This document shows positions 4,883 to 49,207 of a stretch of DNA of 64,000 nt, in pieces. Position 1 is the stretch's first letter. Each line of letters starts with the position of its first letter. Made by a program: the position numbers and the translations under genes. This DNA comes from Spirochaetae bacterium HGW-Spirochaetae-1 (GTDB taxonomy: Bacteria > Spirochaetota > UBA4802 > UBA5550). Where the stretch lies: NCBI GenBank assembly GCA_002839375.1, contig PGXY01000007.1, positions 310,001-374,000 of the forward strand. Reading direction: 5' to 3'. Below the pieces are notes generated by a model. The model searched no databases. It had not been told where the DNA came from and saw nothing but the letters and a program-made list of their open reading frames with translations.

Positions 4883-5827
4883 CTATAAAAACCGAAGCAG
4901 TTTATCAAAAGAATCCTGGTCTATTTTTTGCATTTTCTTTTTAATATCAGCATATGTTTCGTCCCTCCGTATTTTCAGGACAACGCTTATTGCATCGCCC
5001 TCAAAGAACTCCGGGAACTTTATTTCCAGATCTTGCCCCTTCATGGAATCAAGCAGTACTTCCACATCGGCCCATAAAGACGCATACTCGGGATACCTTA
5101 TCCTATGCAGCGCCTCGAGTATATAATTTTCAGAACCGCGGGGGTCATCAATTAAAGTGGGATTTATCTTTTCCATCCATGCCACAGTACCATCACGCCG
5201 ATAGATATCCTGGATCATTTCAACGGCCTTTTTGAAAACATTCACCCGCAGCTGTACATGGCAAAGCCACTGCGCCATTATACCCTGCGCTTGCTCTGGC
5301 AGCCGTAGAAAATATTTTATTATTTTAAAGGATAAATCACGCGCATCAAAATATTCTCTCACGACCTGTGGAAGCCGGAACACGCCTTGAATATCCGGGG
5401 AGGTGCTGATAAAATCACGGGGAATGCCCAATCCTGCAGTTCCCGTATGAAGGCATTCCGTCATGGAAGCATTAAAATAATCTTTCATCACAAACAATAC
5501 CTTCATTTTCCCCGCAGGGCCCAGTTCATTATGATATGACTTTACTACTGCATTGGCTATGAATTCCTGTAACTCTATCCTATCCGACACATGGGCCTCT
5601 ACACGATCAATGCCGGCAAGAGAGGCGGCCTTCAGACGGTTGAATCCATCAATGATGCGGCATTCACCGCTCCCTGTCTTTAATAATACCGGCGACTGTA
5701 ATATCCCGTACTCCCGAACTGAACGCAGGAGGTCGTCACTGACCGCATTTCTGCTGATCCTGAAATACTCATCGGATACATTAATATCCTTTATCATTAG
5801 GGTCGACAATGATCTTCTGTTATGCAT
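4883..5827 (-). CDS. ParB-like N-terminal domain protein
   Basis: About 314 residues, last gene of the leftward seven-gene group. The N-terminal part carries the ParB/Srx fold: SDDLLRSVREYGILQSPVLL, then CRIIDGFNRLKAA, which corresponds to the ParB GxxRxxA (Box II) motif with F-N-R in place of E-R. The rest is helical and unrecognised; no obvious helix-turn-helix or CTPase GERR motif is seen, so it is probably not a chromosome-partition ParB. The ATG at 5827 has GGAA 7 bases upstream; an in-frame ATG at 5848 is possible. It lies 39 bases from the upstream TPR gene. Function unknown. Confidence 0.7.
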   Translation of the reverse strand: MHNRRSLSTLMIKDINVSDEYFRISRNAVSDDLLRSVREYGILQSPVLLKTGSGECRIIDGFNRLKAASLAGIDRVEAHVSDRIELQEFIANAVVKSYHNELGPAGKMKVLFVMKDYFNASMTECLHTGTAGLGIPRDFISTSPDIQGVFRLPQVVREYFDARDLSFKIIKYFLRLPEQAQGIMAQWLCHVQLRVNVFKKAVEMIQDIYRRDGTVAWMEKINPTLIDDPRGSENYILEALHRIRYPEYASLWADVEVLLDSMKGQDLEIKFPEFFEGDAISVVLKIRRDETYADIKKKMQKIDQDSFDKLLRFL

Positions 5828-5866
5828 AGGGTGTTTCCATTGCAGCATTACCGGAAAATTAGAATA

Positions 5867-7510
5867 TTAGATCAGACCTTCCAGGAGGCTTCCCACCTGA
5901 TCGGGATATATAACGGTTATCTTGGAAAGCCGGTTCAGCGTACCCTCAGCTGCGGGGGTCAGGTTGCTGGTGGTGACAAAAAGCCCCTTCACTGCCTTGG
6001 CGTCATTTATCGCCTGGGCAAAATTCCGAAGCGGTATCTCGCCTACATTTGTTCCCTTCCACCGCCGGACCCAAACAAGAACCTTCTTGCCGTCCTCATT
6101 GGAATGAACCATAAAATCCACACCATCGGCTTCCCTGTAGGTGAGAAGAATCTCATCAACAGTATATCCCAGCTTCTGAATCATTCTGCTTGCAATGATT
6201 CTGAATTTTTCCGTATCGGTTTCGCAGAGTACATCCATCCTTTCCGTATCATCATAGGACATATCATCACGAGAAGCACCCTGTTTTGACGATTTTGTTT
6301 CCGAAACTCTCGCCCTGACGATAATACTTTTAAGGTCAAAACGTTTCCCGCTTTTGAGCCCGCATATATTCCAGATAAAATTCTCCGGGAATGCATCCTT
6401 GATCCAGTCATCTATATAATTCATCACTGAATCATATAACGGCTCTGTTTTTTTTCTCGGATCTACATCCATCTCTTTCCTCAGGAGGGTGGTAAGCTTC
6501 TGTACATCCTTATAATTTCTATCTAACTGATACAACTGGTTCCAATAATCATAGGCCTGCTGCGTTTTTTCAGCTCTTATAGATGCAAAACCCAGGTCAT
6601 ACAGGAGTACTGATACTTCATCGTCATGCTCGGATTTTCCTGCCATTTCCAGCAGCTCTTCAAAATATTTGATCCCATTTTCCGGTTTCCGCGCCTGCAC
6701 ATATAAAAATGCCAGGAGCCGTTTGGCAATAATTATAGCATTCTTATCCTTCGAGTTTTCCGCCACCGCCTTTGCGTAATTTATGGCCGTTGAAAAATCT
6801 TTTTTCCTCTGGAGAGTAAAAGCCATGGAAATATTGCCGATATCGGAAAGAGGTTCAATAATCAGCGCTTCCTTGAAATAGTATTCCGCATCGGTCGTCT
6901 TATGATTTTGATAGCTGGCCATTCCAGCGCCAAAATACATTTCAAAGCTTTTATCCTTTGTGCTTTTTAACAGCCGATCAAAACTCTTATAAGCCAGATC
7001 AAATACTTCCTGCCCCAGGGAAATAAAACCGACCTGGTACTGCGCCTCAATATCGCCGGGATAGGCACGGGCTATTTCATAATAGCAATTAAAGGCCTTT
7101 TCGGTTTCTTCCCGGCTGAGATACGCTTCAGCAAGCTGTCTCAGCACTTCGAATTTATCCACTTCATGACTGAATTTATTGATCTTTATAATCTCTTCGA
7201 AGTGCAAAACTCCCTGGTCTATCATCTTATTGGCGAAATACAGTTCTCCCAGCTTGTAATGAACGACAGAATTGGCAGGATTGCTTTCGAGCATCTTTTT
7301 ATATTCGACAACAGCCTCATCGAACATGTTCTGGTCAATAAAGCCCTGCGCCCTGTTCAAGGGATTCAAACGGGGTGCCAGGTAATAAATGTAATATACT
7401 ATGGCACCCAGAATAATAATTAATGTGACCAAAATGGGAAACAACATTATAGTATCGCTTAGTTTTTTATTTTCCGAACCGGAAATACTGCACAGCTTCT
7501 TAATCAGCAT
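5867..7510 (-). CDS. Membrane-anchored TPR protein with degraded Mrr-type C-terminal domain (paralog 1)
   Basis: About 547 residues. Order: one transmembrane helix at about 22-45 (MLFPILVTLIIILGAIVYYI), TPR repeats over about 55-340, then an Mrr-cat/restriction-endonuclease-like fold at about 437-549. The fold is recognisable from FRIIASRMIQKLGYTVDEI, GVDFMV and KGLFVTTSNLTPAAEGTL. The usual QxK of the PD-(D/E)XK core reads VLVWVRRWKG: the catalytic Lys is Arg and the Gln is Trp. Nuclease activity is therefore doubtful, and the domain may only bind. It is a clear paralog of the gene at 12643-13995. The ATG at 7510 or the TTG at 7516 could be the start; neither has a good ribosome binding site. 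Confidence 0.8.
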   Translation of the reverse strand: MLIKKLCSISGSENKKLSDTIMLFPILVTLIIILGAIVYYIYYLAPRLNPLNRAQGFIDQNMFDEAVVEYKKMLESNPANSVVHYKLGELYFANKMIDQGVLHFEEIIKINKFSHEVDKFEVLRQLAEAYLSREETEKAFNCYYEIARAYPGDIEAQYQVGFISLGQEVFDLAYKSFDRLLKSTKDKSFEMYFGAGMASYQNHKTTDAEYYFKEALIIEPLSDIGNISMAFTLQRKKDFSTAINYAKAVAENSKDKNAIIIAKRLLAFLYVQARKPENGIKYFEELLEMAGKSEHDDEVSVLLYDLGFASIRAEKTQQAYDYWNQLYQLDRNYKDVQKLTTLLRKEMDVDPRKKTEPLYDSVMNYIDDWIKDAFPENFIWNICGLKSGKRFDLKSIIVRARVSETKSSKQGASRDDMSYDDTERMDVLCETDTEKFRIIASRMIQKLGYTVDEILLTYREADGVDFMVHSNEDGKKVLVWVRRWKGTNVGEIPLRNFAQAINDAKAVKGLFVTTSNLTPAAEGTLNRLSKITVIYPDQVGSLLEGLI

Positions 7511-7595
7511 GGGCAAAATATCCGGGAAAGAATATGCCTGCTTATATTTTCGTCAAAAAGTGCGGTGAATTATTACGAAAAAACGAAGAGTAAAC

Positions 7596-9800
7596 TCATT
7601 TTATAAAACGAATTATTGAAGGCCATCCATTAATCAGGAAGGAGTTGTCGTAAAATTTCTTTAAAATGAAATCATCCCCCTCCACTATTTTTGTCTTGAA
7701 GGGCAATGTAATCAGTATTTCCGGGGGAACATATTTCGGCAGTTTATCGAAATGAAATTGAACCTCATTCTGGGTCGTTGCCACCCTGAAGCTGATTCCA
7801 CCAAAACGCGATGGGGCATCTTCAATAATGATATCCTTACCCGGAATAAACCATTCCTCCAGGGGAACGGGGAATATCTCGAGTCGTTCCGGCAGATCAA
7901 TAAAAATAATATCCCTGAGCAGGGAAAAGAGTTCAGCACTTATTATTTTCGAACATCCATCACCCCAGACACCATTCATTGAACCGGGAGACACAAACTC
8001 CGGCAGGCAGAAAGTTTTACCGCCCACTTTAAATATTTTTTTCAGGATATCATAAATACGCTTATCATTCATCCTTAATATATTATGCGCGATAAGAATA
8101 CTGGAAAATATATCAATGCCCAGGGATTTAACGTGGATGGGGATGGACTTATAATATCCGAATATGGTATTGATAAGCTTCTCCAGTTCATTTCTGGAGA
8201 GTGATTCCGTAAGAAAAGGATATGCCGCATAAATATCCGTATAAAAGAAATCGTTGCTGATACTGCTCCCTTCCACGTATTTAGCGCGAACATGTTCAAC
8301 AAAAAGCCCCTGCAGACGCTTCGATTCCTGCAGGAATCTGTTCTCATCGCCAAAAATTCCCATACATCGCGAGATATACGAAAAATAATAAAGTGAACTG
8401 GCAGCCAGAACAAGATCATGATACTGGGGACTTTTGACGAGGTAGGTTTTCAGTGAATTTTCCGAAAGGTCCCTTATATTCTTTATAGGGCCAAAAAAAC
8501 GGAAAACATGCCCGGCCAGATCCTTCACGTATTGATAATTTTTCTGAATATAATCAAGATCCCTGGTATGCATGAAATAATCGGCAAAAATGCCAAGCAG
8601 ATAGCAACAATCGATGGCCCCATTGAATTGTGGTGATTTCTTATTAAAAGAAAATCTTTCTTTTATCTCTTCCATAATTTTAAGGGATTCACGGTAATAT
8701 GCCATGCGGTTAAGTCCCCGGGAAATATAGTACAGGGATCTGCAGTTCATTGCATTCTGCGTATCGCCGTCAGGATAAATATCCCTTTCAATCACACCCA
8801 GCATATTAATTTTTAAAGTGTTAAACCAATCCTGGATGTTCCTGTCAGGGAATTGCAGTACAGCCCCTTCCTTCATTCTCATTTTTATAAAAGATGAAAA
8901 TTCATTTTTCAATACGGCAGGATCACATGGTCCCGGAGAGATACCATCCTTTCCGCTCAAACCGATTCGGAAAACAATTCCCTTCTCATTTTTACTGAGT
9001 TTAAAACCAAGTCCCAGTGTGGCCAGCCCGTTCTCACACTGCGTTGATGTGGAATCTTCACGCAGCGCTACATCCACATCCCCCTTCGCACCGGACCCGG
9101 AAAGTACGAAATCAGGAGAAGTTTGCAATGCTATGGTGCTCCTGCCGTTTATGGTGACCACCCTGCTCGCGCTGTCGTAGGAAACGCTTTCGGCCGTTCC
9201 GAGATTCAGAATATTGTACGGGCGTACAACAATCATAATCGAGGCGTTCTTTGTCTTTTCCTTCAACCTGCACTGAACATCAATGACACTCTCATCGATA
9301 GTACTGCGCGCTCCTATCATCGTAGTAGTAACAGTGAAAAGCCTGTCCTTCCAGGCAATTTTACCCACACCGGTTTCCGTTTCTCTTTCAATAGTAACGG
9401 ATTGATGCCTGTCCTGGGCGCGATAGATATCACCACCGATAACCATCCATATTTCAATGGAGCAGCTACTGTCCGAGGTGCATATCATACCCGAGGGATC
9501 GATCTGCAGTTCTTCACGGGATATGAGATTTGAAAAGGCGACCCATTGATGCAGGTGATTGTTCAGGAGAAGCGGAGGATAAACGGGAACGATATTATTG
9601 CTGTTGACATCTTCAGAGTCTATCCAGGCGGGCCATTTAAATAAAGGGAAACGCTGAAAAAGGGAATAGTTATCTATTCCCTTTTTAATATTCTCAAGCG
9701 ATGGCAGCAGTTTTTCCGTATCTACTTTTTCGTTGTATCCGGCAGCATCAGTCATAAACTGAACAGGTCCATTCACTCTTTTGTTGATTCCAATTTTCAA
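7596..9800 (-). CDS. Six-hairpin-glycosidase-like protein
   Basis: 734 residues without a signal peptide, so cytoplasmic by prediction. The N-terminal ~300 residues look like a beta-sandwich. The middle (about 330-640) looks like an (alpha/alpha)6 barrel of the six-hairpin glycosidase superfamily: PDGDTQNAMNCRSLYYISRG, FNGAIDCCYLLGIFADYFMH and LVLAASSLYYFSYISRCMGI fall at helix-like spacing. A C-terminal beta domain follows. No exact GH family or catalytic acid was assigned. The frame begins with TTG at 9800; the next ATG is at 9755 and neither has a strong ribosome binding site. It sits between the STAS gene and TPR paralog 1, an unusual place for a sugar enzyme. The fold call is by pattern only. 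Confidence 0.6.
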   Translation of the reverse strand: MKIGINKRVNGPVQFMTDAAGYNEKVDTEKLLPSLENIKKGIDNYSLFQRFPLFKWPAWIDSEDVNSNNIVPVYPPLLLNNHLHQWVAFSNLISREELQIDPSGMICTSDSSCSIEIWMVIGGDIYRAQDRHQSVTIERETETGVGKIAWKDRLFTVTTTMIGARSTIDESVIDVQCRLKEKTKNASIMIVVRPYNILNLGTAESVSYDSASRVVTINGRSTIALQTSPDFVLSGSGAKGDVDVALREDSTSTQCENGLATLGLGFKLSKNEKGIVFRIGLSGKDGISPGPCDPAVLKNEFSSFIKMRMKEGAVLQFPDRNIQDWFNTLKINMLGVIERDIYPDGDTQNAMNCRSLYYISRGLNRMAYYRESLKIMEEIKERFSFNKKSPQFNGAIDCCYLLGIFADYFMHTRDLDYIQKNYQYVKDLAGHVFRFFGPIKNIRDLSENSLKTYLVKSPQYHDLVLAASSLYYFSYISRCMGIFGDENRFLQESKRLQGLFVEHVRAKYVEGSSISNDFFYTDIYAAYPFLTESLSRNELEKLINTIFGYYKSIPIHVKSLGIDIFSSILIAHNILRMNDKRIYDILKKIFKVGGKTFCLPEFVSPGSMNGVWGDGCSKIISAELFSLLRDIIFIDLPERLEIFPVPLEEWFIPGKDIIIEDAPSRFGGISFRVATTQNEVQFHFDKLPKYVPPEILITLPFKTKIVEGDDFILKKFYDNSFLINGWPSIIRFIK

Positions 9801-9824
9801 TTTTACTGCCAGGACAATTTCAAA

Positions 9825-10169
9825 CTATTCGTTTTTGAAGGATTGCAGGGCTTCTTCCTCGTTATCATAAATATCAAACATATCCATAAGTTCAACAACT
9901 TCAAAAATCTTCTTTACGGCATTATTCATGTTGGACAGCTTCAATTTACGCTTTGATTCCTTCAGAACTCTCATGGTGGAAACAAATATTCTAAGACCTG
10001 AACTGCTCATATATTCCACATCCTTCAGGTTCAGAAGCAGATGACATGCCGGATCATCCTGAATAATTTTATTTATTTCTTTTTCAATGTCCGCGGAAAG
10101 ATGTACATCTAGTCTACCGGCCAGGTAGATAACCGTTACATTCCCTGCTTTTTTAATATTCAATTCCAT
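9825..10169 (-). CDS. STAS-domain anti-sigma factor antagonist-like protein
   Basis: 114 residues, one complete STAS domain (SpoIIAA/RsbV type). LAGRLDVHLSADIEKEI is the first strand-helix, and LKDVEYMSSSGLRIFVSTM carries the phospho-acceptor Ser region (D-x-x-x-x-S-S-S-G-L). In partner switching such proteins, when unphosphorylated, bind an anti-sigma kinase and free its target. No cognate kinase is next to it. AGGAG lies 6 bases before the ATG. It is the fourth gene of the leftward group and probably gives that group a regulatory input. Confidence 0.88.
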   Translation of the reverse strand: MELNIKKAGNVTVIYLAGRLDVHLSADIEKEINKIIQDDPACHLLLNLKDVEYMSSSGLRIFVSTMRVLKESKRKLKLSNMNNAVKKIFEVVELMDMFDIYDNEEEALQSFKNE

Positions 10170-10264
10170 TGTGGTCTCCTAATCCCCCTCGACATTCTAT
10201 TCCTGATCAACAATACTAAATCAGAGATAATTATAAATCAACAAAAAAATTCCAATTACAACAA

Positions 10265-10771
10265 TTATTCAAGTCCCTCTCTGGACTGTTTTTTAGTTAT
10301 AACCAGCCCAAAAACAGTGATTAGTGTGATAGCGATAAAAATAATGCCCAGAATAATAACTATCATATGTCCCTGCTGGCCCAACATAGCGGCACCTGAA
10401 GAAATTGCCTCAGCTTCACTTCTTTTAATTAGCACAACAATGCTCTGTTTGATAAACAAAATCGAAGCCAGAAAAGGAAACAGCAGTCCGTTATAATAAA
10501 TAAGCCCCCTGTATTTGAGCGGATCAAAAAGCGGCAATACCATGGCAACACCGCTGGAAAACAGGAGAGCTGCCGAGGCCCTGGAGATATAATAGAGTGG
10601 ACTCACCAGTTCATGGTCCTTAACAAGATCAAGCCAGTTTTCCGATACGTTTTCAGCAAAAAACTCTATAACTGTCAGTGGTGAAATATAAAACAATGCA
10701 CCCATTATGATATATACCAGGCCTGTTATCAACACAATTACCTGTAAAATATTTGTAGACCTTGATCTCAT
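10265..10771 (-). CDS. Four-helix membrane protein of unknown function
   Basis: 168 residues with four hydrophobic segments at about 10-32, 62-85, 92-112 and 133-160. A loop with charged residues (ENVSENWLDLVKDHEL) lies between the first two. No known domain was recognised. GGGAG stands 9 bases before the ATG. It lies between the pseudo-patatin gene and the STAS gene in the leftward group and could be its membrane partner. Confidence 0.65.
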   Translation of the reverse strand: MRSRSTNILQVIVLITGLVYIIMGALFYISPLTVIEFFAENVSENWLDLVKDHELVSPLYYISRASAALLFSSGVAMVLPLFDPLKYRGLIYYNGLLFPFLASILFIKQSIVVLIKRSEAEAISSGAAMLGQQGHMIVIILGIIFIAITLITVFGLVITKKQSREGLE

Positions 10772-10812
10772 AGAAAAAATCTCCCTCGTGTTTTTAGCGT
10801 TCCCTTTTCCAG

Positions 10813-12624
10813 TTATTTCGATAAAATTGCCCGCGATAGTTCCGATGATCGTTCCAGCAGGCTCTCAAGCCTGAATTCTTCTTCATCAACCTCTATCACA
10901 TAATTTCCATCGGCAAGGTCACTGTATTTTTCATCATATTGTCCATCTTCCAGAAAATCAATATATTTCTTATAAAATTCGAGGACTTTGCCGCTTCTGT
11001 ACCTGAGGGTGCTCCTGTTATTTATAGAGACAAATGATATCTCATCAACATCGGTTCTGTACAGATCCTCCACCATGGCCTTGTGGAGGGGATACCCTGA
11101 ACTATACATAGTACCGCCAATATTTTTCGATTCAAAAATCGGGTGTATCAGGAACGACGCTTCAAATAGATCCTTTATGTATCCGGTACTGAAAATTCTC
11201 CGGGCATTCTTTTCCGTATCATGCAGAAGCACTGTCGGAACGGTATTGTACATTTCTATCCTGTTTTTACCGCATAAATCAGCGGCAATCCGGGAAATGC
11301 CCCCGTTTTTAAAAATATGTTTTTCGGGAAAAGTGATATCAAGATATCCGTTTACCTTTTCCTCGTCAAAGAACCGGCTTATGTTTTTTATGAATCCTTC
11401 AGGATCGTTGCTGACGACATAGAGTGCCGATACAAGGTAACTAAATGAAGAGGTATACAGCATGTCAAAGCTTTTATCAAATTCATCTAACGTTTTTATA
11501 AAGCCGCTCAGTATAACGGACTCCAGCATATTGGGCTCGAGAACAAGGGCTTTTCGTTTTTTGTTAATGAGCCCGGTAAAAATACCGCAGGCTCCTTTTT
11601 CAGTGATGGTGCGAAGCGTCTTCATTTCTATTGATTCAGTAAAATTAAATTTCTCCAGGATGTATCCCCCGGAGAAATTCCTGATCTCACCCTCATTGTA
11701 TTCATTAGCCACATAATAGACCCGTTGCCCGTCATTGAGAACACTGTCGAATAAGGAGTAAACCTCCTCCCGCTCTTTCTTCTTAATAATCGTGAACAGG
11801 ACGTCCGTATCTTCAAAGGCGCTGTTACGCAGCTCGGTATCAAAATCTGACAGGTCCAGGATTATATATTTATATTCCTTGGACAGATAAAAAAGTATGG
11901 GGGAAATAATTCCTGGATCGACCTTCACCTTTGATCCCGAGGCGATATTAAAAAGAAAAAGATTATCATCGACCTTTTCAATCCGCTCCTTCAGGACCTG
12001 CTCCATTGATGAGCCTTCTTTCTGCTTCTGTGAAAAGGGAGAGGTGATTTTTGCATCAAGATAATCAAAAACGGATTTTCCCGAGTATGACATATCAAGA
12101 ATGATGGTCTTGCCGTGCCTGGAAAGATCGAGTCCCAGGAGTGAGGCAAAAAATGATTTTCCCGATTTTTCATGGGAGCTGTAAATCGTGACAATCCTGC
12201 TCCTCTCGGTAAAATATTTTTTTCCCACATCGGATATTTCCAGCCCGATACGGTTTATTGTCCTGACATATCCCCGCAGCGCTTTATATGAAGTAACAAA
12301 AAACCTGTACAGATCCTCCTCGTTTATAATGAGAAGAGACGCATCGATGACAGCTCGTACCGAACCGTGCTGCCGGTTGTCCGTCAAAGGAATGTTCCCG
12401 AAGAAAGATCCGGGTGACAGGTATACAACATCGCTTCCGGCGATTGCCTCTATTTCGAAAACACCGTTGATGACAATATTAAATGAATTTATTTTTTTCA
12501 GTTCGAATCGCTGGCCTTTTTTAATATGAGATATCCTGGCGACCTTTTGCAGATAAAAAATTTCATCATCGGAGCAATGCCGGAAAAGTGGAACGTTTCT
12601 GAGTAATTTATTTGCGATATCCAT
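10813..12624 (-). CDS. cNMP-like / P-loop / degenerate patatin protein (NTE-like architecture)
   Basis: 603 residues. Residues 1-130 resemble a cyclic-nucleotide-binding beta-roll (VPLFRHCSDDEIFYLQK, then SPGSFFGNI). Residues 143-300 form a MinD/ParA-like P-loop: EKSGKS at 152-157, Walker B YIILDLSD at 253-260. Residues 358-550 follow the patatin pattern of neuropathy-target-esterase homologs: KALVLEPNMLESVILSGFIK replaces the GGGxRG oxyanion segment, and YTSSFSYLVSALY (390-402) replaces GxSxG, keeping Ser393 but losing both glycines. The Asp of the DG(G/A) motif is absent near 507-511. This looks like a catalytically dead relative used for sensing or scaffolding. The alignment is by eye. Confidence 0.65.
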   Translation of the reverse strand: MDIANKLLRNVPLFRHCSDDEIFYLQKVARISHIKKGQRFELKKINSFNIVINGVFEIEAIAGSDVVYLSPGSFFGNIPLTDNRQHGSVRAVIDASLLIINEEDLYRFFVTSYKALRGYVRTINRIGLEISDVGKKYFTERSRIVTIYSSHEKSGKSFFASLLGLDLSRHGKTIILDMSYSGKSVFDYLDAKITSPFSQKQKEGSSMEQVLKERIEKVDDNLFLFNIASGSKVKVDPGIISPILFYLSKEYKYIILDLSDFDTELRNSAFEDTDVLFTIIKKKEREEVYSLFDSVLNDGQRVYYVANEYNEGEIRNFSGGYILEKFNFTESIEMKTLRTITEKGACGIFTGLINKKRKALVLEPNMLESVILSGFIKTLDEFDKSFDMLYTSSFSYLVSALYVVSNDPEGFIKNISRFFDEEKVNGYLDITFPEKHIFKNGGISRIAADLCGKNRIEMYNTVPTVLLHDTEKNARRIFSTGYIKDLFEASFLIHPIFESKNIGGTMYSSGYPLHKAMVEDLYRTDVDEISFVSINNRSTLRYRSGKVLEFYKKYIDFLEDGQYDEKYSDLADGNYVIEVDEEEFRLESLLERSSELSRAILSK

Positions 12625-12642
12625 TTTATTTGACGGAATGCA

Positions 12643-13995
12643 TTATATTTTTTTTAGCATCTCAACCAGGTCCGCTTTAGTCAATGTCTCGATGGGACGA
12701 GTATTAGCGAATTCCAGGGCCTTGGGGGAATATTCACCCGTGGTGATTATCATGATGCGGGTGGCATTACGTGGTTTCATAGTCTGATATAACTTCCGGA
12801 GAACTGAGTCCTGAATGATTTCAGTTGTCCTGATAATGCGTATTATCCTGTTGGATTGCCGGGCGTTTCTCCACTTTCCCTCTATCTCTGTCGCAATCAT
12901 TTCGATTTCCGTATCGCTGATTATATCAACATCGGTGATGGTATATCCCAGTGCCGTAATCATTTTTCTGCACATATGTTCAAACTGTGAAAGTCCGGCG
13001 ATGAGGAAATCCTTTATGCGGTCATCCTGCCGGAATTCTGAAAAACCTTTCAATTTCTCCTGGACATCACGGAAATTCTTGTTCACTTCTACTATCTTTT
13101 CCCAGTTATGTATCGCCGCATGTATATCCCGCATTTTTTCCTGACACTCAGCCAGGAAATAACGAAGATTAAGCTCCGTCTCACTGCCTGACCGGGCGAA
13201 TTTTAATCCCCTTTCAAATTCAGTGGCGGCCTTGGGATACTGCCCCCGCTCGAGGTGACATGATCCCTTGGCGAGAAAGCTCTTCACTTTCAGGTCATCG
13301 CTCTTCTGGGCCGTTTCAAATTCCTTAATAGCCCACTCGTAATCTCCCTGCTGACGAAGCACAAGTCCCAGAAAATAATGAGCCTTGTAATTCGCCGGAT
13401 TAAACTTTATAGTATTGATAAGCATCTGTTTCGCATCGGCATAGGCTCCATTCCTGTAATACGTCTGCCCCAGGAAATAATATGACATCTCGTGCTTGCT
13501 GTTATTGGATATGCTTTTCTTGAAGAAACCGACGGCCTTGTCCAGTTGATTGGAATTAAAAAATATCTGGCCCAACTCGTAATAATGCTCATAATTGGCC
13601 GGATCAATTTTTGTCAGTATAAGGTATTCCTTGCGCGCCTCTTCAATAGCCTTTTTCTCTTTAAACATTCTTCCAAGAGTCGATCGTACATATATTTCAC
13701 TTATCATATCATCATAGCGTCCAAGCTTTAACACCTGCCGGTACTCAACGATGGCATATTGACTATTTCCCTCTTTTGCATAAGCCTCGGCCATGAGGAA
13801 ATGGGCATGGGGATTCCTATCATCTTTTTCAATAATTTCGGTCAGTTTTTTTATAGCCAGCTTGGTCTGTCCGGCCTCGATCATAGTGGCTATTTCATCA
13901 ATTTTTTTGGGGAATACAATGGTGTTCAGGACATAGTAAATTATCAGTCCCAGCACGATGAAAAACATGAAAATTATTGCATAAGTAAAAATCAT
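12643..13995 (-). CDS. Membrane-anchored TPR protein with degraded Mrr-type C-terminal domain (paralog 2)
   Basis: About 450 residues from the ATG at 13995 (AAAAGGA 11 bases upstream); a TTG start at 14034 would add 13 residues. Residue numbers here count from the TTG. One transmembrane helix at 14-36, then TPR repeats (for example MSYYFLGQTYYRNGAYADA) to about 335. The C-terminal domain (350-463) aligns with paralog 1: CRKMITALGYTITDVD and RIMIITTGEYSPKALEFA. The PD-(D/E)XK core is more eroded here, with RIIRIIRTTE where QxK belongs. It is the first gene of the leftward group, directly behind its promoter. Confidence 0.8.
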   Translation of the reverse strand: MIFTYAIIFMFFIVLGLIIYYVLNTIVFPKKIDEIATMIEAGQTKLAIKKLTEIIEKDDRNPHAHFLMAEAYAKEGNSQYAIVEYRQVLKLGRYDDMISEIYVRSTLGRMFKEKKAIEEARKEYLILTKIDPANYEHYYELGQIFFNSNQLDKAVGFFKKSISNNSKHEMSYYFLGQTYYRNGAYADAKQMLINTIKFNPANYKAHYFLGLVLRQQGDYEWAIKEFETAQKSDDLKVKSFLAKGSCHLERGQYPKAATEFERGLKFARSGSETELNLRYFLAECQEKMRDIHAAIHNWEKIVEVNKNFRDVQEKLKGFSEFRQDDRIKDFLIAGLSQFEHMCRKMITALGYTITDVDIISDTEIEMIATEIEGKWRNARQSNRIIRIIRTTEIIQDSVLRKLYQTMKPRNATRIMIITTGEYSPKALEFANTRPIETLTKADLVEMLKKI

Positions 13996-14083
13996 ATCGA
14001 TTGAAATCCTTTTCTCCCGATTCCCCGCTTGCAAGGGAATAACAATCCCGATTTAACGGTTTTTCATATATCCTGATTTAATC

Positions 14084-14110
14084 ATTATACTAAAAAGGTA
14101 TATATGTCAA
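14084..14110 (-). promoter_or_regulatory. Near-consensus promoter of the seven-gene leftward group
   Basis: On the minus strand, a perfect TTGACA (14110-14105) and a perfect TATAAT (14089-14084), separated by 15 bases. The short spacer is the only deviation from consensus; it could lower basal activity or mark activator control. It is positioned to drive the genes from 13995 down to 4883. Confidence 0.55.
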
Positions 14111-14271: not shown

Positions 14272-14344
<73 letters not shown>

Positions 14345-14356
14345 CATTAACCCGCC

Positions 14357-42993: not shown

Positions 42994-43698
42994 ATGGATC
43001 AAAAGAAAGTAGCAATACTGCAATCCAATTATATCCCCTGGAAGGGTTATTTTGATCTCATCAACATGGTGGATGAGTTCATACTTTATGATGATGTGCA
43101 GTATACCAAAAATGATTGGAGAAACCGCAACAGAATAAAAACTGTTCAGGGTGTGCAGTGGCTCAGCATTCCCGTATTTAAAGAAAGCCTTTCACAAAAA
43201 ATTAAGGACACAAAAATAATACAACAGGATTGGAATAAAAAACACTGGAAGACGATAAAAATAAATTATGCAAAGGCGCAATATTTTAAAGATTATTCCG
43301 ACAATTTTGAAAATGCATACATGACATGCACATATAAAAACCTCAGCGCAATTAATTATTCATTCATAAAGGCCATCAACAACATCCTGGGAATAACCAC
43401 AAAAATATCTTTTTCCAGTGAATATTCATTTAAAGGTGATAAGACAGAAAAAATAATCTCAATTTTAAAAGAAGCGAAAGCAACAGAATATCTCTCAGGA
43501 CCGGCAGCACGCGATTATATTGATGAAAATTTATTTCAGCAGGAAGGAATAACGCTTGCATGGATGAATTATTCCGGTTACAGGGAATACACACAGCTTT
43601 ATCCCCCTTTTGAACATGCGGTGAGTGTTATTGATTTGATTTTTAATGAAGGGCCGAAGGCTAATAGGTATCTAAAAAGTTTTAAGGAAGTTATATGA
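42994..43698 (+). CDS. WbqC-family protein
   Basis: About 234 residues. KKVAILQSNYIPWKGYFDLI, DEFILYDDVQYTKNDWRNRN and YLSGPAARDYIDENLF match WbqC, common in O-antigen and glycan clusters and probably an acyl or amide transferase. The ATG at 42994 fits the family N-terminus; a TTG at 42976 is also open. It overlaps the GT2 gene by 4 bases. Confidence 0.88.
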   Translation: MDQKKVAILQSNYIPWKGYFDLINMVDEFILYDDVQYTKNDWRNRNRIKTVQGVQWLSIPVFKESLSQKIKDTKIIQQDWNKKHWKTIKINYAKAQYFKDYSDNFENAYMTCTYKNLSAINYSFIKAINNILGITTKISFSSEYSFKGDKTEKIISILKEAKATEYLSGPAARDYIDENLFQQEGITLAWMNYSGYREYTQLYPPFEHAVSVIDLIFNEGPKANRYLKSFKEVI

Positions 43699-44612
43699 AA
43701 CTCTCAATTGTTACGACTATGTATTATTCGGAACCCTACCTAAAAGATTTTCATACCAGGGTCAAGGCATCAGCGGAAGCAATCACAAAAAGCTACGAGA
43801 TCATTTTTGTTGATGACGGCTCACCGGATAATTCGCTACAGACAGTCATGGCACTTAAAAAAAAGAATGATAAAAAAATTAAAATAATTGAACTCTCCAG
43901 AAATTTCGGACACCATAAAGCTATGATGACCGGTTTGTCACATGCGAAAGGAGACTATGTTTTTCTTATTGATTCGGACCTTGAAGAAGAACCTGAACTG
44001 CTGGAGATATTCTGGAAGGAAATAAATGAAGACACGACATTGGATGTTATATATGGGGTACAAAAATTCCGTAAGGGCTACTTTTTAGAAAAGACATTCG
44101 GATATCTTTTTTATTCACTCTTTAACTACTTCTCAGATTATAAGCTTACGAGAAATCTGGTAGTAGCTCGTTTAATGAAAAAACAGTATGTCAAGTCTCT
44201 TTCTCAATATAACGAAGAGCACCCTCTTTTTGCCGGTTTATGTGTCCTGGCCGGTTATAACCAGAAAGAATATTACATAACCAAAGGACACAAAAAGCAG
44301 ACGAGTTATTCATTTCGAAAAAAGTTATCTCTCGTTATTAATTCTATAACATCATTCAGTGCAAAACCGCTTGTATCTATATTTTATCTTGGGCTGATCA
44401 TTCTTCTAATTTCGACTTTGTTTATTATTCGAATGCTTTATCAGAAAATTTTCCTTGGTGCTTCTATCGGATGGACCTCTATTGTAATTTCAATCTGGTT
44501 TTTTGGCGGACTGGTTATCTTCTGTCTTGGAATCCTTGGCATTTATCTCGCAAAAATATATGAACAGTCCAAACACCGTCCCTATACTGTAATAAAAAAT
44601 TTTTATAAATGA
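43695..44612 (+). CDS. GT2 glycosyltransferase with two C-terminal membrane helices
   Basis: 305 residues. GT-A domain with FVDDGSPDNS and IDSDLEEEPEL (DxD-like), then two C-terminal transmembrane helices near 235-290. The shape fits polyprenyl-phosphate sugar transferases such as ArnC/DPM1. Acceptor and sugar unknown. Confidence 0.9.
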   Translation: MKLSIVTTMYYSEPYLKDFHTRVKASAEAITKSYEIIFVDDGSPDNSLQTVMALKKKNDKKIKIIELSRNFGHHKAMMTGLSHAKGDYVFLIDSDLEEEPELLEIFWKEINEDTTLDVIYGVQKFRKGYFLEKTFGYLFYSLFNYFSDYKLTRNLVVARLMKKQYVKSLSQYNEEHPLFAGLCVLAGYNQKEYYITKGHKKQTSYSFRKKLSLVINSITSFSAKPLVSIFYLGLIILLISTLFIIRMLYQKIFLGASIGWTSIVISIWFFGGLVIFCLGILGIYLAKIYEQSKHRPYTVIKNFYK

Positions 44613-44630
44613 TAGCAGAACCTGGAAGCT

Positions 44631-45806
44631 TCACATTAATGAAGTAAATGGAATATGAAAATCCTTTAATTTTTCCATTATTGCGTATTTATATGCCGGT
44701 CTTGTGCAGAGCAATACATGCAGTTTGTCATTTGAAGCGGCAGTTTCCAGATTTATCACCTCTTTATTTAAATAATTTTCTCCTTTCTTTATTTCGTCAA
44801 TAATAAATATTACATCATTAAATCGTCCTGAATTCATCAGTAAAATAGCACTATACATACCCGCACCAAACAACGCTAAATTACCCCCATTCACTTTTTC
44901 AAGCTCTTCCCGGAATCCAGACAAAATACCATCCCACCATTTTTGATGAAAGGAGTATATATCACCAGTACTCCTGATAATATCTTCAGAAAATGTTGTA
45001 GAATTTTTGCTTCCAGGGACTGATACGCATCGACATATATAATGATAGCTTGAAGCAAGATTTCTTTTATATATTATTTCATAACCAACAACCTTTAAAT
45101 AATCATCCATTACACTCTTTTTATACATAAAGGAATGATCCCATATATAAGGTGTACACTCCGATTCCTCAAGAACCATAAATTCCAAACTGAGCAGAGT
45201 TCCGATATCTGAACACTCCCGAATTTTGAACAATTCAGGGAGCACGGGACTCCTGTTAAGCAATCCGTGAGCGATAATCACATCAAACTTTACGTCGGAA
45301 AAATAAGATGCTTTAAAAAAATCGTTAATAAAGATTATATTAGTATTTAATTCAATGTTTTGAATACTGTCCATCGATGGATCTATTCCATAACAATTCC
45401 ATCCCGGAAAATGTTCACTAAAATTTTTTATCAATTCTCCCTTACCACAAGCAATTTCCAGCATATTCCCCTGTTTTTGTTGAAAAATACTAAAATTAGA
45501 AAAAAGATTGTTTAGAATATACTCATGTTTATTGAATACTTGGTTGTTTACAACGATAAAATGATTCTGTACTTTCTCCGATAAAGAGTATTCTTTGTGA
45601 TAAAAATCATTTAATCTTTTTTCAGGGAAAAAATGCACCTCGATACACGCACAACGTAAACACAGTGTCCTTATCGCTTCTGCTTCACTTATTACTTTTG
45701 CATCTGATGTTAGAATTTGCTCATTTCTAGAGTTAATTGACTTCAACACCGTAAGGTCAGTATGGTTGCAGTTTGAACATTTAATATTTTTCAATGATGA
45801 AAGCAT
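44631..45806 (-). CDS. Three-part SAM methyltransferase (C-methyltransferase type)
   Basis: About 391 residues: an N-terminal zinc-like part (CSNCNHTDL plus CLRCACIE), a class I fold (MLEIACGKGELIKNF, WNCYGIDPS) and a C-terminal NAD-like fold (LALFGAGMYSAILLMN). This resembles sugar C-methyltransferases. GGGAG lies 7 bases before the ATG at 45806. Last gene of the leftward cassette. Confidence 0.78.
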   Translation of the reverse strand: MLSSLKNIKCSNCNHTDLTVLKSINSRNEQILTSDAKVISEAEAIRTLCLRCACIEVHFFPEKRLNDFYHKEYSLSEKVQNHFIVVNNQVFNKHEYILNNLFSNFSIFQQKQGNMLEIACGKGELIKNFSEHFPGWNCYGIDPSMDSIQNIELNTNIIFINDFFKASYFSDVKFDVIIAHGLLNRSPVLPELFKIRECSDIGTLLSLEFMVLEESECTPYIWDHSFMYKKSVMDDYLKVVGYEIIYKRNLASSYHYICRCVSVPGSKNSTTFSEDIIRSTGDIYSFHQKWWDGILSGFREELEKVNGGNLALFGAGMYSAILLMNSGRFNDVIFIIDEIKKGENYLNKEVINLETAASNDKLHVLLCTRPAYKYAIMEKLKDFHIPFTSLM

Positions 45807-45834
45807 CGGCATTCTCCCGCATTACTACAGAGTT

Positions 45835-46632
45835 TTATTCACTTACACGTCCGCAACCAATAAGCGTCAAACCCAGATTTGTATGATAGAACAGTTTCTG
45901 AAAATTAACTACGGGAAACATTGTATACCTGTTCAATAACAATTTCACCCATGCCGGGAAGAGTGTCTTATAAGGAACATTTTTTAGACCGCTGTTTTTT
46001 GTTTTCTCCATCATATCAAAAGCATTCATTTCTTCGTAAAGGCTTCTCCGGGTCATAAGATTACCTAAATTAAACAGGATATTAGAAACAGGAAATCCGA
46101 CGGAATTAATTATTATATCTTTCAAACAAACTTCTTCCATAACTCTGAAAAGATCCTTCCTGTCATATCTCCTATAGTGACCATATACTTCATCCTCAAT
46201 ACCCCATTTATCAACACGTCCCGGCACGGCGATAATGATATAACCATTATTTCTCGCCAACATTTTCAGTCGATCAAGAAACAGTAAATCATCTTCCAAA
46301 TGTTCCATCACCAGCATGCTAAATACCAGGTCTGCTTCGACACCATGGCTACCTGTCATCACATCGGCTTCGATAATTGAATACACCCCTCTATCGATAT
46401 ACTCCTGCATGTTTTTTTTCAGGATTTCAATCATGGCTTGAGAAAAATCAATACCATATCCTTTAATCGATTTATTGCATAATCTGGCAGAAAGGTGACC
46501 TTCTCCGGGACCGACTTCGATAAAGGAGTGAGGACAAATTTTCCCAATCAATTGGAAAAATGTTTCATTCAGACACCATGTACCTGGCGGATCAATCTGC
46601 AGCATCTTTTTTTGTTTTATGTCAGTTCCCAC
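45835..46632 (-). CDS. Class I SAM methyltransferase
   Basis: 265 residues. FIEVGPGEGHLSARL is motif I, GIDFS motif II and SMLVMEHLEDDLLFL motif IV-like. It overlaps the end of the ATP-grasp gene by 16 bases. Confidence 0.85.
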   Translation of the reverse strand: MGTDIKQKKMLQIDPPGTWCLNETFFQLIGKICPHSFIEVGPGEGHLSARLCNKSIKGYGIDFSQAMIEILKKNMQEYIDRGVYSIIEADVMTGSHGVEADLVFSMLVMEHLEDDLLFLDRLKMLARNNGYIIIAVPGRVDKWGIEDEVYGHYRRYDRKDLFRVMEEVCLKDIIINSVGFPVSNILFNLGNLMTRRSLYEEMNAFDMMEKTKNSGLKNVPYKTLFPAWVKLLLNRYTMFPVVNFQKLFYHTNLGLTLIGCGRVSE

Positions 46633-48284
46633 AACAACTCCCGCAGCGATCCGATTTTTCTATACGATGGTCTTCCAAGTTTTAGATAATTTTGTTCAGA
46701 AAAATTAAAAAAAGTCCCATCACGCTGTATCCAGTACTTAAGCCGAAACCCGGCATCAGCCGCTCCGGCAATATCCCTAAAAAGATTATCTCCGACCATA
46801 GCAAGATTGGCAGCATCAATGCACATTTTACCAGCAATATTTAAAAAAGCTCCTTTATCCGGTTTTTCTTTACCGCATTCACGCGTAAAAACAACGGCAT
46901 CAAATAAAGATTCAAGCCCGGATACACGAAGTTTCTGTTTCTGTGAATCAGGTGGATTATCAGTTAGTAAAGCGAGCTTATAGCCTCTCGTTTTCAGTTC
47001 AACAAGCGTCAGTTCAGCATCTTTGTAAAGGCAAGTATCGACGGGTTCAATTCTGCGATATGTATCGATAAATATATCTCTTGAACTTTGTTCAAGTGAA
47101 AGATAGTCACATACGGCGTCTATGGTTTTACTCCTGTTACCCTCCTCAAGCATCCATAAAACCAGGGATAAAAAATCTTCTCGGGGAGGCAGAATATGTG
47201 AATGTTTTTCCCAGAGAATTTCAAATTTATTCATAATCCACTTTTTTTGATCCAGCAATGTGTCATCAAGATCGAAGACAACACCCTTGATATTCCCTGC
47301 AGGTTCTCTGAAATAATACATCTCTTCAAGATATCGCACCATGATCATGCTTTTTCTATCATTTAAGTGTACCGATGAACCAAACTTTAAAAATTTTCCA
47401 TCAATGGATGAGCAAAAGAAAAGAGGCAGGTTAATTGCGACACCATAAGTAAAGACCATCGAAGTTCCCACTCGGGGATTGATATCCGAAATGTAAACAT
47501 AATCATCAGTTTTCAAAATTTGAAAATTGAAAAGACCAATTGCGCCACGAGACACCAGCTTTAAAATTAAATGATTTGCCAGATTTTGCAGGTCCTCATC
47601 AAAAACAGACTCGGAGATAATCGCAAATCCCCCCGATGTCCGGTTCCGTCTTCTGATGACAGGATCTGACGCTATGGTTTGACTATTAACTGCAAAATCT
47701 ATTGAATACTCTAAAAAATTTTGAAGCAATGGCTGAAAAATATAATCCTTTTTCAGTTTATCAATACTGTAATTAATCAAATCACTTTCATGATGTATTT
47801 CAATAAAGCCTTTTCCTCCAAAACCAGATAAAGGCTTCCCGATAACAGGCAATCTTTCTACATTATCAATATCAATCTCAGGTATGAACGGCAATCCTTC
47901 ATCCATGAGAAATTGTTTAAGCAATCGTTTATCCTGCAATGTTCCAAGCAGAGCAGAAGACGACACGGCAACATGAATATTTTTCGATTCAAAATATCTT
48001 TTTTGCAAAGATAAAAGGCGCAGTTCATACTCCATGGATGGGAAGATTATGTTTATTGATTCCTTTTCACAGATATCCTGAAGAAAATCAATGAAAACAT
48101 CCTCATCCTTAATTAATGGGGCCTGATAAAATACATCAACAAAATATCTGCTGGTATTTTCTTCATAACAATCAATGAGAATTGTTCTGATAAATTCGGA
48201 TTTAATCAAGCCCTTGATGATAGCAAGACCTGAAAAACCACCTCCTGATACGACTAATGCATTGATCATGTCAGTAACGATCAC
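46617..48284 (-). CDS. ATP-grasp / HAD hydrolase fusion protein
   Basis: 555 residues. Residues about 110-315 are a carbamoyl-phosphate-synthase-like ATP-grasp: PVIGKPLSGFGGKGFIEI and DINPRVGTSM. Residues 334-530 are a HAD phosphatase with all four motifs: FDLDDT (337-342), LLTDN (439-443), KEKPD (472-476), MVGDN (496-500). It may ligate an amino or carboxyl group and also remove a phosphate. Start and radical SAM stop overlap as ATGA. Confidence 0.85.
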   Translation of the reverse strand: MIVTDMINALVVSGGGFSGLAIIKGLIKSEFIRTILIDCYEENTSRYFVDVFYQAPLIKDEDVFIDFLQDICEKESINIIFPSMEYELRLLSLQKRYFESKNIHVAVSSSALLGTLQDKRLLKQFLMDEGLPFIPEIDIDNVERLPVIGKPLSGFGGKGFIEIHHESDLINYSIDKLKKDYIFQPLLQNFLEYSIDFAVNSQTIASDPVIRRRNRTSGGFAIISESVFDEDLQNLANHLILKLVSRGAIGLFNFQILKTDDYVYISDINPRVGTSMVFTYGVAINLPLFFCSSIDGKFLKFGSSVHLNDRKSMIMVRYLEEMYYFREPAGNIKGVVFDLDDTLLDQKKWIMNKFEILWEKHSHILPPREDFLSLVLWMLEEGNRSKTIDAVCDYLSLEQSSRDIFIDTYRRIEPVDTCLYKDAELTLVELKTRGYKLALLTDNPPDSQKQKLRVSGLESLFDAVVFTRECGKEKPDKGAFLNIAGKMCIDAANLAMVGDNLFRDIAGAADAGFRLKYWIQRDGTFFNFSEQNYLKLGRPSYRKIGSLRELLWELT

Positions 48285-49207
48285 CGGGCTTCAGGTTCAA
48301 AAAAAAGAGAACGCCCTGTTTGCCAATCACGGCAGTTTTTGCACAAATCATGGCTAAAATCTCCTTTCCAGTGCTGTTCCCTTCTTTTTGCAAGCTCCCC
48401 GTTCCACACTTCCTTAATCGACATGTTTTTAATATTCCCTGGACTGTATTCACCTTCGAAATCGGCATCGCTGCAATGTGCAAAATTGCCGTTCCAGTGT
48501 ATTGCACAATTACGTATGAGCATTGGGCATGGGAAAGTCCGAGCCGCAGGAGGAAGATTAAGTGAACGATGCGTGTCTACAGCAGTGCCCCAACCGATTT
48601 TAGGACGCACTTTAAGTTTGGCCCCGAGATTCAGCCAGAATTGTTTGAAGTCCTCGAACTCTTCCTCATTTTCATCCATTAAGATATATTGAAGGTACAA
48701 CCGAGGCTGGCTTAATTTCCGCTCTTTAATAACATCCAGCAGATACTTGATATTTTCAACGACTGTGGTTAAATCCCCTCCCACCCTGATTTTATCATAG
48801 GTCTCTTCTCTATATGAATCTATACCGATTATTATTTCGCTTACACCGGCCATAATCAGTTTTTCACACAAATCCGGTTTCATTAAAACTGCATTTGTGT
48901 TAAGATGTATATTTATTACACCGGCCTTTTTTGCATATAAAATCATTTCGATAAGTTTATCTCCCAGCAAAAGCGCTTCACCCATAATAGCAAGCCATAA
49001 CCGTGTATCCGGACTCTCACGTGCGATCTCATCAACAATTTTTTTAAAGGTATCAAAGGACATTTCTCCTTTGGCTCTTTTCAAGGTCTTTTGCGGACAC
49101 ATAGAACATTTCAGATTACAATAGGCCGTCGTTTCGACCAGGACTTCAACAGGAAAATCTGTTTTTTTCAAAGTTGGAATAATAGCATCGAATTGAGGTT
49201 CCCACAT
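48281..49207 (-). CDS. Radical SAM/SPASM-type protein
   Basis: 308 residues. Radical SAM cluster C30-NLK-C34-SM-C37, then IMGEALLLGDKLIEM. C-terminal cysteines (FPCPMLIRNC, FAHCSD, LCKNC) suggest SPASM auxiliary clusters. First gene of a leftward cassette with the ATP-grasp-HAD protein and two methyltransferases. Confidence 0.85.
   Translation of the reverse strand: MWEPQFDAIIPTLKKTDFPVEVLVETTAYCNLKCSMCPQKTLKRAKGEMSFDTFKKIVDEIARESPDTRLWLAIMGEALLLGDKLIEMILYAKKAGVINIHLNTNAVLMKPDLCEKLIMAGVSEIIIGIDSYREETYDKIRVGGDLTTVVENIKYLLDVIKERKLSQPRLYLQYILMDENEEEFEDFKQFWLNLGAKLKVRPKIGWGTAVDTHRSLNLPPAARTFPCPMLIRNCAIHWNGNFAHCSDADFEGEYSPGNIKNMSIKEVWNGELAKRREQHWKGDFSHDLCKNCRDWQTGRSLFFEPEAR

Follow-up and report, generated by a model that had tools for sequence, protein, structure and literature searches.

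Layout and promoter of the seven-gene block

The analysed stretch of Spirochaetota DNA, hereafter the window, is 64,000 nt long and carries seven minus-strand ORFs placed head to tail at positions 4883–14034. Read from the promoter, they encode a first TPR-Mrr protein (TPR-Mrr1), a cNMP/P-loop/pseudo-patatin protein, a four-transmembrane (four-TM) protein, a STAS protein, a six-hairpin protein, a second TPR-Mrr protein (TPR-Mrr2) and a ParB-like protein. The numbering of the two TPR-Mrr paralogues is the reverse of that in the preliminary description, whose leftward seven-gene locus proves to be a real, co-directional and conserved multi-gene unit. With the starts as first called, the intergenic gaps measure 18, 79, 24, 95, 41 and 18 nt by increasing coordinate. 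Alignment with homologues moved the start of TPR-Mrr1 from TTG 14034 to ATG 13995, which has AAGGA upstream, and that of TPR-Mrr2 from TTG 7516 to ATG 7447, so that the gap before TPR-Mrr2 becomes 148 nt; the range of mostly 18–95 bases given earlier holds for the first-called starts, and this one gap now falls outside it.

A candidate sigma-70 promoter lies at 14084–14110 on the minus strand, where direct reading gives two perfect hexamers, TTGACA (14110–14105) and TATAAT (14089–14084), separated by 15 nt. The usual sigma-70 spacer is 16–18 nt, so that the promoter described earlier as near-consensus is borne out in its hexamers and falls short in its spacing. A consensus scan recovers the same −35 box, with an alternative −10 at 18-nt spacing as its sole result, and the promoter stays a candidate because promoter-like matches abound in the surrounding AT-rich region (40 versus 25 expected). 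Between GreA and the block, and opposite in direction to both, is a plus-strand tRNA-Ala (GGC) at 14272–14345. Elsewhere in the window, a low-GC stretch (0.34–0.38) at 43695–49207 encodes a glycosyltransferase, two methyltransferases, an ATP-grasp/HAD fusion and a radical-SAM SPASM protein, and resembles a gene cluster for surface glycans or modification that may have been acquired.

Enzyme folds and active sites of the block proteins

Active-site columns were assigned from the established motifs of each enzyme family, Mrr included. Three of the seven proteins had been proposed to carry enzyme folds with lost active-site residues, and the motif table extends this: within the uncultured order to which the window's genome belongs, both Mrr domains, the patatin, the six-hairpin protein and the cyclic-nucleotide cassette are degenerate, as is the P-loop lysine in several genomes.

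TPR-Mrr1 (450 aa, 12643–13995) and TPR-Mrr2 (526 aa from ATG 7447, 5867–7447) each consist of one N-terminal TM helix, as detected by hydropathy and as expected of the two membrane-anchored scaffolds first suggested, a TPR array and a catalytically degenerate Mrr domain, with Pfam matches to TPR and Mrr_cat in both (7.9e-15 and 1.8e-12). Basic residues directly after the TM helix of TPR-Mrr1 suggest that the TPR and Mrr domains are on the cytoplasmic side. The PD-(D/E)xK signature is broken, QxKR being replaced by VRRW in TPR-Mrr2 and by RxxRTT in TPR-Mrr1; the two proteins share the Mrr_cat fold of Mrr and type IV restriction endonucleases, but they lack the catalytic lysine and are fused to a TM-TPR region. 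They also match weakly the NACHT-associated inactive REase family (PF22722), although the block contains no NACHT domain. An assignment of TPR-Mrr1 and TPR neighbours to FlcA or the periplasmic collar was rejected on the scores (34–82 bits against a cut-off of 300) and on the basic residues after the TM helix, while a MamA match of one neighbouring TPR protein (L132), barely over its cut-off, was taken as generic TPR similarity. A third full-length TPR-Mrr paralogue, 24% identical to TPR-Mrr1, is encoded elsewhere in the window's genome (G000:C5:344090-345391; L002, L057).

The second gene (10813–12624) encodes a 603-aa protein with a cNMP-like domain, a ParA/BY-kinase-like P-loop domain and a pseudo-patatin domain. 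Its predicted structure (pLDDT 90) confirms the folds, with Foldseek matches to the PlpD and CapE patatins and to HCN-type CNB domains; the P-loop domain matches ParA/BY-kinase proteins by PDB profile, and the Pfam cNMP match is marginal (2.6e-6). In the patatin domain, the DGG motif of the Ser-Asp dyad has become SGY or SGF, with Ser or a different residue in place of Asp, and not every sequence retains the GxSxG serine. The phosphate-binding cassette of cNMP domains (FGE...PRA) has mostly lost its Glu, with a displaced Arg in most rows, and the P-loop lacks the signature lysine of the ParA/MinD deviant Walker A, GKS reading GGT, GTS or GNS in several genomes. The protein thus has the patatin fold and N-terminal CNB-like domain of NTE-like cNMP-patatin proteins and CBASS CapE, but differs from them by the missing catalytic Asp, the unconserved Ser, the degenerate CNB cassette and the central ParA/BY-kinase-like domain. 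A 770-aa protein encoded elsewhere in the genome (L164:8658-10970, G000:C4) has strong cNMP-binding domains weakly similar to this CNB region, and no Pfam patatin match.

The 734-aa six-hairpin protein (7596–9800) carries neither a signal peptide nor a TM helix, and its model (pLDDT 87.5) likewise confirms the fold, with Foldseek matches to GH94 phosphorylases, GH15 glucoamylase and GH95. It shares the β-sandwich and (α/α)6 fold of GH94/GH15-type glycosidases with a TM-score of about 0.55, but the Asp of the RD motif is absent in nearly all members of the order, along with other active-site residues; the motif and these residues are present in Leptospirales-labelled relatives, and WFRDAAYM is kept in L130 and L129. 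The four-TM protein (168 aa, 10265–10771), with helices predicted from hydropathy, matches no Pfam family and bears the conserved motifs MRSxxTNxLQ and PLFDPLKYRG. The ParB-like protein (321 aa, 4883–5848) has a ParB/Srx N-domain with a Pfam ParB_N match just under the cut-off (1.1e-5), and its profile matches ParB and Noc structures over profile positions 29–188, through the helix-turn-helix region; a GhNR box stands at the GERR-type position, and the ENLQR-type motif is altered. As in ParABS, a ParA-like P-loop and a ParB-like N-domain occur in one operon, but the block differs from ParABS in its missing signature Walker lysine, in the absence of the P-loop lysine in several genomes and in the altered ENLQR motif.

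The STAS-only protein (9825–10169; Pfam 4.2e-21) is of the anti-sigma-antagonist type. It aligns with the TM1442, SpoIIAA and RsbV structures, and S56, S57 and G58 are at least 90% conserved, Ser56 (YMSS*SGLR) being the candidate phospho-acceptor; the block would thus hold an antagonist with a phosphorylatable serine, as in the Rsb/SpoII modules (RsbV/SpoIIAA, RsbW/SpoIIAB, RsbU/SpoIIE). The block differs from these modules in that neither a SpoIIE/PP2C phosphatase nor a GHKL anti-sigma kinase lies beside the STAS gene within it, its companions being the TPR-Mrr, pseudo-patatin, pseudo-glycosidase and ParB-like genes. Most genomes of the order encode an orphan GAF-GAF-SpoIIE protein (in the window's genome at G000:C1:140744-142336), and none of the loci inspected showed a recognisable STAS gene next to it; pairing with any single phosphatase is uncertain because the window's genome has 14 STAS-like matches.

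The patatin and six-hairpin folds, together with the membrane proteins of the block, might point to envelope lipid or carbohydrate homeostasis, in which the patatin-like and glycosidase-like proteins would sense a lipid or glycan and the STAS protein would act as an MlaB-like partner. We consider this very unlikely: both active sites are lost, no Mla transporter gene was recognised beside the STAS gene, and by NCBIfam scores the STAS protein falls well short of MlaB (17 bits, cut-off 90) and passes as an anti-sigma antagonist (84 bits, cut-off 53).

Conservation of the block and neighbours of TPR-Mrr1

About 20 kb around the pseudo-patatin gene was compared across most genomes of the order, adjacencies being counted in testable cases only because some contigs end inside the block. 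The six internal same-strand adjacencies are kept in 39/39, 36/37, 37/37, 32/35, 30/32 and 35/35 cases, whereas the flanking ones are broken in more than half (GreA–TPR-Mrr1 kept in 14/32, ParB–S1 in 14/35). Linkage of the seven genes is far above chance; all seven co-occur within the order, well over the four whose conserved co-occurrence had been proposed as support for a system, and the dispersal in relatives that would have spoken against one is not seen at this level. The three exceptions at the STAS/six-hairpin junction agree with the lack of a six-hairpin gene in family f3. In family f6 the block is split into two intact pieces, TPR-Mrr1–pseudo-patatin and four-TM–STAS–six-hairpin–TPR-Mrr2–ParB, and in one genome (G007) the last two genes have been relocated about 40 kb away.

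Such linkage could reflect a conserved neighbourhood of separately acting regulatory genes kept adjacent by slow rearrangement. Beyond the order several components are indeed unlinked or absent, TPR-Mrr2 being unlinked in family f34 and the six-hairpin protein in family f22, but the labile flanks around a nearly invariant interior, and an f6 break that leaves two intact pieces, make this explanation rather improbable.

The block proteins show correlated pairwise identities, among themselves and with GreA (0.58–0.95), as vertical inheritance predicts. The nominally highest correlations join the pseudo-patatin, six-hairpin and ParB-like proteins (0.94–0.95), and the slowest-evolving members are STAS and TPR-Mrr1 (75% and 63% mean pairwise identity). 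By these comparisons the block belongs to the vertically inherited core genome, rather than to a mobile or defence island. A defence role is therefore unlikely, and the specific proposal of an anti-phage or surveillance system related to CBASS or type IV restriction is hardly credible to us: the patatin fold is near CapE and PlpD and the Mrr domains give weak hits to type IV restriction models, but the nuclease and lipase catalytic residues are lost, inheritance is that of core genes, and neither an active effector nor a nucleotide cyclase or other defence gene was recognised at the block. PADLOC yielded nothing beyond weak, generic hits to nucleases or methyltransferases. Of the membrane-linked sensing or surveillance complex first suggested, the surveillance part finds no support, given the core-genome inheritance, the lost residues and the weak PADLOC matches, and the sensing part remains plausible.

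TPR-Mrr1 extends far beyond the order: of 296 Spirochaetota genomes, 221 have a match with an E-value of 1e-20 or lower. After it in family f34, labelled Leptospirales, come a GAF-GAF-SpoIIE-HATPase gene, a STAS gene whose product is 57–61% identical to the block STAS, and a six-hairpin gene whose product appears intact. In one Treponema-family locus (L137) it precedes a ParB-like gene, a GAF-SpoIIE gene, a STAS gene and an RsbW-like HATPase kinase gene, beyond which lie csrA, fliW, flgL and flgK (named from sequence); the phosphatase, STAS and RsbW-like genes recur in a second such locus (L138). SpoIIE phosphatase and GHKL kinase genes, the kinase being fused or linked in f34 and L137, thus belong to this neighbourhood in two other spirochaete groups. 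Many other Spirochaetales loci combine TPR-Mrr1 with a metallophosphatase and a ParB-like gene, and no STAS gene was found adjacent to it there. Orthology of the Treponema ParB-like protein to that of the block finds no support past the fold (hhalign 20%, E 1e-3). The gene after TPR-Mrr1 in several additional families encodes a relative of the cNMP/P-loop/patatin protein that is more degenerate still (hhalign 99.5%, E 2.6e-22).

The same pair occurs on a 3.9-kb contig labelled Hydrogenedentota (L114), which is probably a mis-binned spirochaete contig. A short coiled-coil gene with a conserved YENVLKLNE-type motif lies directly upstream of TPR-Mrr1 at L075:12299-12619, in L076, L114, L115, L125 and L127, and in families f5, f6, f22 and others; a search for it in the window's genome found none, an empty result that is weak evidence of absence.

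In the Treponema pallidum genome (G096, 1,139,633 bp), TPR-Mrr1 is located at 499,927–501,234 and adjoins a gene with 17 EAEEARRK repeats, which is TP0470. A published single-nucleotide variant at nt 500905 gives D357N in TP0471 (PMC10013896); this nucleotide falls in codon 357 of the TPR-Mrr1 ORF, which our translation reads as aspartate. Position and sequence identify TP0471, described solely as a hypothetical protein with a TPR domain (PMC10013896), as the TPR-Mrr1 orthologue. The region has this core protein in common with the block, but no STAS, phosphatase, pseudo-patatin, six-hairpin or ParB-like gene was recognised beside it.

A possible partner-switching complex and its significance

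With moderate confidence, we read the block as coding for a regulatory complex, anchored in the membrane and working by partner switching, in which pseudoenzymes would serve as binding modules; the assembly of the proteins into one complex, its membrane topology, its signal, the phosphatase pairing and the regulated target are inferred. The reading is preferred because STAS, phosphatase and kinase partners recur and the STAS serine is retained. In its favour are also the order-wide linkage within labile flanks and the split of f6 into intact pieces, the association of TPR-Mrr1 with SpoIIE-HATPase and STAS in f34 and with SpoIIE, STAS and an RsbW-like kinase in two Treponema-family genomes, the slow evolution of STAS and TPR-Mrr1, the orphan GAF-GAF-SpoIIE of most order genomes, the degenerate pseudo-patatin relative that follows TPR-Mrr1 in other families, and degenerate modules that are structurally intact in the models. 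Against it, the block itself holds no phosphatase, kinase or sigma factor, many Spirochaetales TPR-Mrr1 loci have a metallophosphatase and a ParB-like gene instead of an adjacent STAS gene, and the Treponema ParB-like protein is related to that of the block by fold only.

In such a complex, the two TPR proteins and the four-TM protein would form a platform, held at the inner membrane by the N-terminal helices, with the TPR and dead Mrr domains in the cytoplasm. The cNMP/P-loop/pseudo-patatin protein and the pseudo-glycosidase would bind ligands or proteins rather than act as enzymes, and would set the state of the platform. Output would pass through STAS, whose Ser56 an RsbW-like kinase would phosphorylate and a SpoIIE-type phosphatase would dephosphorylate, its phosphorylation state leading to capture or release of a partner; the orphan GAF-GAF-SpoIIE (G000:C1:140744-142336) is a candidate phosphatase in the order. 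The ParB-like protein would be the likely nucleic-acid or nucleotide-binding end. The complex appears specific to spirochaetes, the profile searches having covered Spirochaetota.

The main rival of the partner-switching reading is a structural scaffold, that is, an inner-membrane architectural or positioning apparatus of the cell pole, nucleoid or envelope, in which ParA-like and ParB-like domains would have been recruited for assembly and STAS would link parts physically instead of switching by phosphorylation. A ParA/BY-kinase-like domain and a ParB-like protein in one operon, the TPR scaffolds, the unconserved P-loop lysine and other catalytic residues, as would be expected of structural parts, and the retention of TPR-Mrr1 in the reduced T. 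pallidum genome with no adjacent STAS or phosphatase gene all agree with it, but conservation is highest in a STAS protein with an intact acceptor serine, and SpoIIE and HATPase genes are linked in other families; we regard it as a serious possibility, though a doubtful one.

Limited literature searches found no published description of the seven-gene set, in keeping with the preliminary statement that no such system was known. A bolder reading, which we hold to be somewhat less likely than not, is that the block encodes a spirochaete-specific signalling or organising complex made almost entirely of pseudoenzymes (two nucleases, a lipase, a glycosidase and a nucleotide-binding module), held by TPR proteins at the inner membrane; it would have been present in the ancestor of most of the phylum and been cut down in T. 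pallidum to the TPR-Mrr core, TP0471. If true, nothing described so far would be comparable to this complex. The operon also appears unusually complete in its reuse of enzyme folds as binding modules, and for one of them, the six-hairpin protein, apparently active relatives survive in a related lineage and are available for comparison. For a protein of three-quarters of the sampled Spirochaetota, still hypothetical in the reduced genome of T. pallidum, the block supplies a genomic setting and with it a function that can be tested.
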